Below are positions 37,179 through 44,175 of a stretch of 64,000 nt of DNA, in pieces. This stretch comes from Clostridia bacterium. GTDB taxonomy: Bacteria; Bacillota; DSM-521; Neomoorellales; Neomoorellaceae. Within the stretch, counting starts at the first letter, position 1; the number at the start of each line of letters is the position of its first letter. The stretch spans positions 1-64,000 of the forward strand of contig JASKKH010000007.1 in NCBI GenBank assembly GCA_030154265.1, written 5' to 3'. The notes below the pieces were generated by a model. The model had not been told where the DNA came from. It ran no database searches and saw nothing but the letters and a program-made list of their open reading frames with translations. A program made the translations under genes and the position numbers.

Positions 37179-37270
37179 GTTTTAAGGTTTGATAAGCAGG
37201 GTAAGCTAGATACAACTTTTTATTACTTAAATTATCCTTAAATAATGAATATATGGGGGACTGCAAAGCT

Positions 37271-37561
37271 TTGAATGAAGTCAATCAAGCAACCAGGTTG
37301 TTAGCGGAAAAGGTACAAGAATTAATTACTGCTATAGAAAAAGCGAATGTTGCTGAATGGGTAGAACTATATCGGAGACCTGGACGACTTATTTACTTAA
37401 ATTTTATTGCTGGATTGGCTAGAGGTCTGGGAATTGCTATAGGCTTTACCATTTTAGGTGCAATTGTACTTTACATTATACAAAAATTAGCCTTATTAAA
37501 TTTACCTATTATTGGTAAGTTTATTGCTGAAATTGTACGTATGGTTCAACAGGAAATTTAA
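37271..37561 (+). CDS. DUF5665 small membrane protein
   Basis: This protein of about 96 residues has an N-terminal amphipathic helix (ATRLLAEKVQELITAIEKAN) and the motif NFIAGLARGLGIAIGFTILG leading into a transmembrane helix. It resembles the DUF5665 family of Clostridia, whose function is unknown. TTG 37271 is about 10 nt after GGGGGAC and is preferred to ATG 37253, which contains that site. It lies alone between the ileS terminator and thiD. Confidence 0.65.
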   Translation: MNEVNQATRLLAEKVQELITAIEKANVAEWVELYRRPGRLIYLNFIAGLARGLGIAIGFTILGAIVLYIIQKLALLNLPIIGKFIAEIVRMVQQEI

Positions 37562-41884: not shown

Positions 41885-41978
41885 TATACCAATATTTTGG
41901 AAGGAAAATAACTGATGGATGTCAAATATACCTGGTAATTAGTGGTAAAAACCTAAAAATCAGGAGAGGTGGACATCT

Positions 41979-43367
41979 ATGGCCAAAAAACATAAAAATT
42001 TACCGGCACCAAAAGTAGCTAAAGTTAAAGTTACAGGAAAGCTAGATTCCCTTACAGATTTTATTAAACTAAATTTATTCGAATATTCTCCGCAAAAAGC
42101 AGATCACTTGGTTAAGAAAGCACAAAAAGATTTATTGACTGACCAAGCAATAAATAAGGTACAAAAAAATGTTAATCGCTGTCTAACCAAAAATCCTTGT
42201 TTCCGAAGTGAAGGAAAGGGTCTTTGGTGCTTACGTCTTGATGGGCTAAAAGAGAATGATGCTGCTCATCGTATTCTCCAGGCGGAAGGCGGTGCTTTAA
42301 GAGTCGATGAGATAAATAAAGAATTAAAAGAGCTTGGTAAACCTGAGATAGCAGGAGAACGTAAGTTGGTTTCTGATGGCCGTTTTTTAAGGCTTAAAGA
42401 TGGTCGTTGGGGCCTAATCCATTGGGCCTATTTAGAACCTGAAATTAACATTAAAGGAAATACTGCAAAAGAAGCTAGTACAACTGCAAAATCTAGCTCA
42501 AAGGCTAAAGAAAATAAAACTAACAAAATCAATAGTTCTATTGAATCTGATAGTTCTTTTCAACTTCTACCATTAAGAACTAACAATAATAAAAAATCGG
42601 AGACACTATTAAAATCCTACTTAAAACCTATTCTACCCTTAGCAAACGATAAGAAAGAAAGTGATTTTTGGGATAAACTTCTACCCTTAAAAAAATCAAC
42701 ACCCTTGTCGATTTCTCCAAATGAATTAAAATCTAAGTCAAGTAATAACAAAAACCTTTCGGCTTGGGAAGAAGTAGCTGCAAGTGCTGAGGCAGCAATT
42801 TTGTCAATCGAAACTGATAAAAAAGGAAAAAGTTCAAAAGAATTTAGTTTAATAGCAGGAGGAAAAGTTGACCATTCTGGAAATCTGGATATACAAAAGG
42901 GAAACAAGCTAGCTACTCAAATAGAGGATTTACGTAAGGAAAATAAAAATCTTTTAAGTGATTTAGAAAAACTTCATCGACGTAAAGAAGAATTAAGACA
43001 AGAATTAAATCTGGCAGAAGAACAATTAGTAAACCTAAGGGTTGACAGGGATACACTTAAGAAAAGGGTAAGTCATCTTGAGACCCGCCTTATGCAGTTA
43101 CAAGGAACACTAAATAAAACAGTGAGCGATGCTCAAGCGGAACAGTCAAGGTTGAAACAACAATTAAGAGAGCAAGAATATCGTTTACAAACTACTATTA
43201 TTGCTAATGAAGATTTAGAGCGAACTGTCGCAGAATTACAAAAAGAACGCCAGAACTTAAAACGTCAATTATCCATTTGGCCTGTACGTTTGGCTTTGCG
43301 GTTTGCGTCATTTATTGGCTTTAGTTTTCCCCAGGAAAGACCAAGACCAAAGGTTTCCGAACGATAA
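41979..43367 (+). CDS. Tandem HARE-HTH-like winged helix/coiled-coil protein
   Basis: This 462-residue protein is not recognised as a named gene. Residues 22-88 and 94-149 look like two successive winged-helix modules of the HARE-HTH/RpoE-delta type: NRCLTKNPCFRSEGKGLWCL in the first and AAHRILQAEGGALRVDEINK then DGRFLRLKDGRWGLIHW in the second. Residues 155-300 are Ser/Lys/Asn-rich and probably disordered. Residues 305-430 are a heptad-like coiled coil (LRKENKNLLSDLEKLHRRK). The C-terminus has an amphipathic, possibly membrane-binding stretch, WPVRLALRFASFIGFSF. The architecture suggests nucleic-acid or polymerase binding plus oligomerisation; this is inference. It lies between the AEC permease and the pyr leader, with AGGAGAGGTGG before the ATG. 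Confidence 0.6.
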   Translation: MAKKHKNLPAPKVAKVKVTGKLDSLTDFIKLNLFEYSPQKADHLVKKAQKDLLTDQAINKVQKNVNRCLTKNPCFRSEGKGLWCLRLDGLKENDAAHRILQAEGGALRVDEINKELKELGKPEIAGERKLVSDGRFLRLKDGRWGLIHWAYLEPEINIKGNTAKEASTTAKSSSKAKENKTNKINSSIESDSSFQLLPLRTNNNKKSETLLKSYLKPILPLANDKKESDFWDKLLPLKKSTPLSISPNELKSKSSNNKNLSAWEEVAASAEAAILSIETDKKGKSSKEFSLIAGGKVDHSGNLDIQKGNKLATQIEDLRKENKNLLSDLEKLHRRKEELRQELNLAEEQLVNLRVDRDTLKKRVSHLETRLMQLQGTLNKTVSDAQAEQSRLKQQLREQEYRLQTTIIANEDLERTVAELQKERQNLKRQLSIWPVRLALRFASFIGFSFPQERPRPKVSER

Positions 43368-43426: not shown

Positions 43427-43455
43427 TTGACATAATGGAAGATTCCAACTAAACT
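43427..43455 (+). promoter_or_regulatory. Sigma-A promoter of the pyr operon
   Basis: TTGACA at 43427-43432 and TAAACT at 43450-43455 are 17 nt apart. The predicted start lies about 30 nt before the first PyrR-binding loop. A weak hairpin ATTAC/GTAAT with T7 at 43387-43409 could terminate the previous gene. Confidence 0.7.
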
Positions 43456-43489
43456 GTCTATGAACAGATGAAAAGAATCCTTTTAAGTT

Positions 43490-44175
<686 letters not shown>

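Follow-up and report, generated by a model that had tools for sequence, protein, structure and literature searches.

The question raised by this locus is what a bacterial protein might do that joins two successive winged-helix modules, by way of a long disordered linker, to a coiled-coil rod and an amphipathic C-terminus. An earlier note on this DNA had read that layout from the open reading frame at 41979-43367 of the window (the whole stretch of 64,000 nucleotides that was analysed), and the overall architecture was seen again in an AlphaFold2 model, in alignments and in a test of the C-terminal tail. The features on which the discussion draws are these:

41962..41969, + strand: ribosome-binding site AGGAGAGG, 10-17 nt 5′ of the ATG (read directly from the sequence)
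41979..43367, + strand: whole coding sequence, 462 amino acids (open reading frame; the product is conserved across the GTDB class of the window, 22 of 22 genomes)
41979..42041, + strand: basic N-terminal tail, residues 1-21, computed net charge +7
42042..42248, + strand: winged helix 1, residues 22-90 (predicted fold and structure matches; no delta match by hhalign)
42249..42443, + strand: winged helix 2, residues 91-155, homologue by profile of the HARE-HTH / RNA polymerase delta N-terminal domain (PDB profile search, hhalign, Pfam)
42444..42893, + strand: disordered, fast-evolving linker, residues 156-305 (pLDDT mostly <50; 15-34% identity outside its motifs)
42663..42689, + strand: linker motif DFWDKLxPL, residues 229-237 (alignment A1; 67% identity in an 18% background)
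42759..42809, + strand: linker motif around WEExAAxAEAA, residues 261-277 (alignment A1; 69% identity)
42894..43274, + strand: predicted coiled coil, residues 306-432, where conservation is highest (single predicted helix; heptads; 89% identity over 344-432)
43278..43364, + strand: residues 434-462, predicted amphipathic and cationic helix (WPVRLALRFASFIGF) with a basic tail (model helix at 434-445; family-wide amphipathicity)

The open reading frame is a real gene, because it is preceded by a ribosome-binding site and its product is conserved throughout the 22 genomes of the class; the ATG lies at 41979 and the stop codon occupies 43365-43367. The genome to which the window belongs (1.99 Mb, 99.9% complete) holds a single match to the protein, one copy per genome is usual in the class, and the relatives that bear names are Moorella and Thermanaeromonas. 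Two damaged copies were encountered, one interrupted by an in-frame TAG (L071:9396-10508, genome G014, Moorellaceae) and one whose frame is cut short (L105:7237-8205, genome G068); in both cases the relatives are intact, and these copies are either pseudogenes or assembly errors.

The earlier note had also asked how far the protein is spread, and the answer goes well beyond the 22 genomes of its own class. The tandem of winged helices is present in 104 of the 113 genomes of a second class (that of genome G103), including 78 of the 80 near-complete ones, with one copy each except in a genome flagged as 8% contaminated, and in all three genomes of a third, small class. Across the phylum, 47 of 398 sampled genomes carry it, with E values of at most 6e-38; the matches that follow, at 1e-8 or worse, cover essentially wing 2 alone and lie nearly all in open reading frames of about 90-260 amino acids, as expected of canonical delta. 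Tandem wings, coil and tail are common to the three length forms of the family. The short form has 409-561 amino acids and occurs in the Moorellaceae, the medium form has about 430-500 and a third wing-like segment ahead of the coil, and the long form, at 640-730, gains a third wing as well as a middle domain and one more wing-like segment. The middle domain, which lies between the winged helices and the coil and is conserved in four long forms (L069, L087, L091 and L094) as YILSSxDLxxGxLxxTKRLExLF...GLxxWFxxxGLEPGSKL, gave no profile match in the PDB or Pfam; its sequence may resemble that of B3-like DNA-binding domains. Other HARE/delta-like domains occur outside the family tandem, in open reading frames of about 600 amino acids (G076, G114, G248; family f54) and in one of 1052 amino acids with two copies (G059:C21). 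In agreement with what had been claimed, no named family with this domain order was found: in Pfam, NCBIfam, PHROGs and PADLOC none covers the protein beyond weak HARE/delta and coil matches (PHROGs gave no match at all), and the literature searched holds no description of it. The domains are thus of known kinds, and their combination and near-universality in these classes are new to the sources searched.

The N-terminal half offers the most specific clue to function. The earlier note had staked its proposal on a winged-helix fold at residues 22-149, and the AlphaFold2 model of the 462-residue protein, built from nine related sequences, predicts two such modules, with the order helix-helix-helix-strand-strand at 25-85 and helix-helix-strand-strand at 95-148; the pair folded by itself reached a pLDDT of 75 and a pTM of 0.60. 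Searching all PDB sequences with a tandem-wing profile of 32 sequences (A3) returned RNA polymerase delta as the only significant matches, six sequences at E values from 1.3e-5 (best) to 1.3e-4, and every one of them fell on wing 2. Likewise, hhalign related wing 2 to a delta locus set (27/30 sequences) at 97.9% probability and E 4.6e-13, with null reversed-profile controls, whereas wing 1 reached a probability of 18% and no profile match. The Pfam HARE-HTH model (PF05066) scores the window protein at 18.7 bits, below the gathering score of 25.9, and one relative (L095) at 26.3 bits. Judged by these profiles, wing 2 is a true homologue of the delta N-terminal domain, whereas for wing 1 the winged-helix fold is predicted and homology to delta could not be demonstrated; of the two HARE-HTH/RpoE-delta-like modules originally proposed, then, the second holds in full and the first holds as a predicted fold. 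Structure comparison of the N-terminal pair did retrieve winged-helix neighbours, namely FOX, Z-alpha and delta domains, including Staphylococcus aureus RNA polymerase delta superposed on wing 1 (Z 6.7), but the matches are only middling and every Z lies below 8. The N-terminal tail and wing 1 are basic (pI 10.8 and 9.2), and wing 2 is close to neutral (pI 6.2); this speaks against wing 2 as a DNA-binding domain, although it would be no proof that the domain binds RNA polymerase. Among Moorellaceae proteins, the identity of the winged helices is 77-78%.

The linker that follows is as disordered in the model as had been supposed, and it leads into the most conserved part of the protein. The coiled coil, put at about 125 residues from the sequence, extends over about 125-130 (308-432), in the model as part of one helix (300-432) with pLDDT mostly >90 and with heptads unbroken from 308 to about 384 and a single register shift near 385. 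Over residues 344-432 its identity, as a mean over Moorellaceae pairs, is 89%, compared with 72-76% for the window's IleS against its Moorellaceae relatives. Even at the exposed heptad positions b, c and f the coil keeps 82% identity, and therefore the outer surface of the rod is under selection, which suggests a fixed partner or a fixed assembly. Identity with SMC (TIGR02168), JetC or LmuB was considered and rejected, as the matches are far below cut-offs and confined to residues about 259-445, where they reflect coil composition.

The C-terminus bears out the amphipathic character that had been ascribed to it. The model places a short, separate helix at 434-445, and the sequence ends in the pattern (P/L)-V-(R/K)-hydrophobic, with rare variants, in every relative examined that has a complete C-terminus. 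The 27 family tails taken from the three architectures have a mean hydrophobic moment of 0.41, whereas shuffled tails average 0.28 and none of 500 shuffles is as high; basic residues outnumber acidic ones by 67 to 1. This composition is that of a membrane-interfacial cationic amphipathic helix, so far as sequence can tell, and the tail may bind the membrane; the idea of a bridge to the membrane is, in that sense, a plausible one.

It is worth considering how far the kinship of wing 2 with delta extends to the protein as a whole. By its sequence, the protein itself is not RNA polymerase delta: under the delta model TIGR04567 it scores 17.1 bits and its highest relative 32.4, below the curated cut-off of 42, and it has no strongly acidic disordered C-terminal region, the net charges being +8 for the linker, +3 for the coil and +4 for the tail, whereas canonical delta tails, by the same computation, consist of about 50-70% D/E in most long sequences. 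Since the acidic tail is missing, this protein cannot reproduce the activity for which delta is best known. Many delta-model matches in the phylum are, as a separate observation, only 85 amino acids long and carry no acidic tail (L135, L136, L138, L140-L144 and L146).

In the phylum sample the two proteins also do not occur together. Of the 398 genomes, 105 have delta above the TIGR04567 cut-off; none of these is among the 47 bearers of the tandem, where 12.4 would be expected under independence. In bearers, the only match to the delta model, if there is any, is the tandem-wing protein itself. The probability of zero overlap is 2e-7 if genomes are taken as independent and 0.004 at the level of families (16 bearer and 38 delta families), values that ignore deeper phylogeny and are not tree-corrected. 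For that reason, and because 293 of the 398 genomes have no delta anyway, the absence of delta from bearers is compatible with its replacement and does not prove it; it could be a plain phylogenetic partition. Firmicutes usually keep HelD or delta (PMC8655204). HelD exceeds its cut-off in none of the 22 class genomes, in 3 of the 47 bearers and in 72 of the 398 genomes overall, and as it is scarce in the phylum too, many sampled genomes having neither HelD nor delta, no conclusion on compensation by HelD is drawn.

We put forward, tentatively and at a probability of roughly 40%, that the protein serves as a core cytoplasmic tether, which anchors itself to the membrane and holds RNA polymerase and/or DNA there. 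The protein would pair through its coiled coil into a dimeric rod, with the C-terminal amphipathic helix fixing it to the cytoplasmic surface of the membrane, and the long flexible linker would hold out the two winged-helix heads. Of these, wing 2 would most likely dock on RNA polymerase as delta does, whose N-terminal domain binds the enzyme at a site between the shelf and the jaw of beta-prime (PMC7749165; PMC11156646), while the basic N-terminal tail and wing 1 probably touch DNA. RNA polymerase and/or the nucleoid would thereby stay in contact with the membrane in lineages that lack delta; a relative of delta's anchoring domain, carried on a rod with a probable membrane helix, may in this way tie the transcription machinery or the chromosome to the membrane. 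We count in favour of the tether the homology of wing 2 to delta, the near-universal and usually single-copy spread, the conservation of the coil, the amphipathic tail, the absence of delta from bearers and the basic N-terminal tail and wing 1; we count against it the near-neutral charge of wing 2, the missing acidic tail and the absence of delta from most of the phylum sample, and also that the C-terminal helix could instead be a protein-binding motif. The bolder form of the proposal, in which several anaerobic Bacillota classes have replaced delta with a membrane-anchored coiled-coil protein that physically holds transcription at the membrane as a dedicated core factor, we regard as unlikely. 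A usually single-copy protein that is near-universal in whole classes, the Moorella-group acetogens included, and that neither the papers nor the curated families searched describe, probably has a basic role; from a coil so extremely conserved a specific partner is to be expected. If the tether is real, it would be a dedicated device of a kind undescribed for these bacteria, and it would give a testable answer to the question of what, if anything, replaces delta where delta is absent.

Two other readings use much of the same evidence. The protein could resemble RacA or Noc in anchoring the nucleoid to the membrane or to the pole. Both wings would then bind DNA, with dimerisation through the coil and attachment of the tail to the membrane or to a polar protein, and RNA polymerase would play no part. 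The layout of a DNA-binding-type domain, a coiled coil and a terminal anchor fits this, as do the basic N-terminus and the resemblance of the N-terminal pair to the DNA-binding winged helices of FOX and Z-alpha proteins. However, those structural matches are middling (Z <8), wing 2 is near neutral and specifically related to a domain that binds RNA polymerase, and Pfam and NCBIfam reveal no homology to RacA or Noc; we consider such an anchor possible, if on the doubtful side. The protein might, on the other hand, be a soluble RNA polymerase accessory factor that replaces delta, its coil assembling or acting on the polymerase and its C-terminal helix binding a protein and not the membrane. The delta homology of wing 2, the lack of delta in bearers and the conserved coil surface would all be accounted for, but a tail so amphipathic, basic and nearly devoid of acidic residues sits poorly with a soluble factor, and there is no acidic region to displace nucleic acids (the linker alone has a net +8), so that this reading seems to us distinctly unlikely.

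The genes around the locus inspire two further explanations, both of which suffer from how variable those neighbours are. An orphan N4/N6 DNA methyltransferase (PF01555; 40063-40905), with no restriction enzyme seen beside it, lies upstream of the gene, and most Moorellaceae, as well as another class, have inherited it in that position. A role in reading modified bases has been proposed for HARE-HTH domains (PMC11037411), and the protein might read the marks that this enzyme makes. Yet four of the 22 class genomes keep the protein without the methyltransferase, which is also missing from the locus in the medium-form lineages, and a reader of DNA modification is for these reasons quite improbable. 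The PyrR leader (43476-43585; RF00515, 56 bits) adjoins the gene on the same strand in the window genome, ahead of the pyr operon, and the earlier note had pointed to this proximity; it is incidental. The pyr operon has its own promoter-like site (10/12) at 43427-43455, and the neighbours, named by reading their sequences, differ among relatives: the gene lies downstream of guaB at 13 medium-form loci, among leu genes or near cdaA and ybbR in two long-form lineages, and after an ileS/lspA/rluD block, often with the orphan methyltransferase between, in the Moorella group and two other lineages, with ABC transporters separating it from pyrR in Moorella itself. The gene thus acts as a core gene independent of its neighbours, a pyr-specific role is rejected on these variable neighbourhoods, and a regulator of pyrimidine synthesis acting through the PyrR leader is barely credible. 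Within the same block of the window, between ileS and thiD/lspA, there is also a small conserved membrane-type protein, DUF5665 (37253-37561).

Returning to the preferred reading of a membrane-anchored tether, it is informative to set the protein beside the known systems that it partly resembles. With RNA polymerase delta (RpoE; TIGR04567; PDB 2krc, 6zfb and 8x6g) it shares, in wing 2, homology over the length of the delta N-terminal domain, and each of the two occurs once per genome in Bacillota; it differs in its size (462 amino acids against about 85-190), in adding an N-terminal wing, a coiled coil and an amphipathic tail, and in lacking the acidic disordered C-terminus. Among HARE-HTH proteins (PF05066) it has the likeness that wing 2 aligns to the model, the one relative exceeding the gathering score, but it carries no nuclease or modification domain and possesses instead a second, non-HARE wing, the coil and the tail. 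The weak profile matches to SMC/MukB-like proteins (TIGR02168, JetC) touch the coil and adjoining linker only, and the ATPase head domains of those proteins are absent. RacA of Bacillus combines a DNA-binding domain with a coil, and Noc combines a DNA-binding domain with an amphipathic membrane helix. The window protein resembles each of them in layout, with a DNA-binding-type fold and coil as in RacA and an amphipathic tail comparable to the helix of Noc, although its DNA-binding-type domains are of other kinds, its tail is C-terminal and Pfam and NCBIfam give no sequence match between them.
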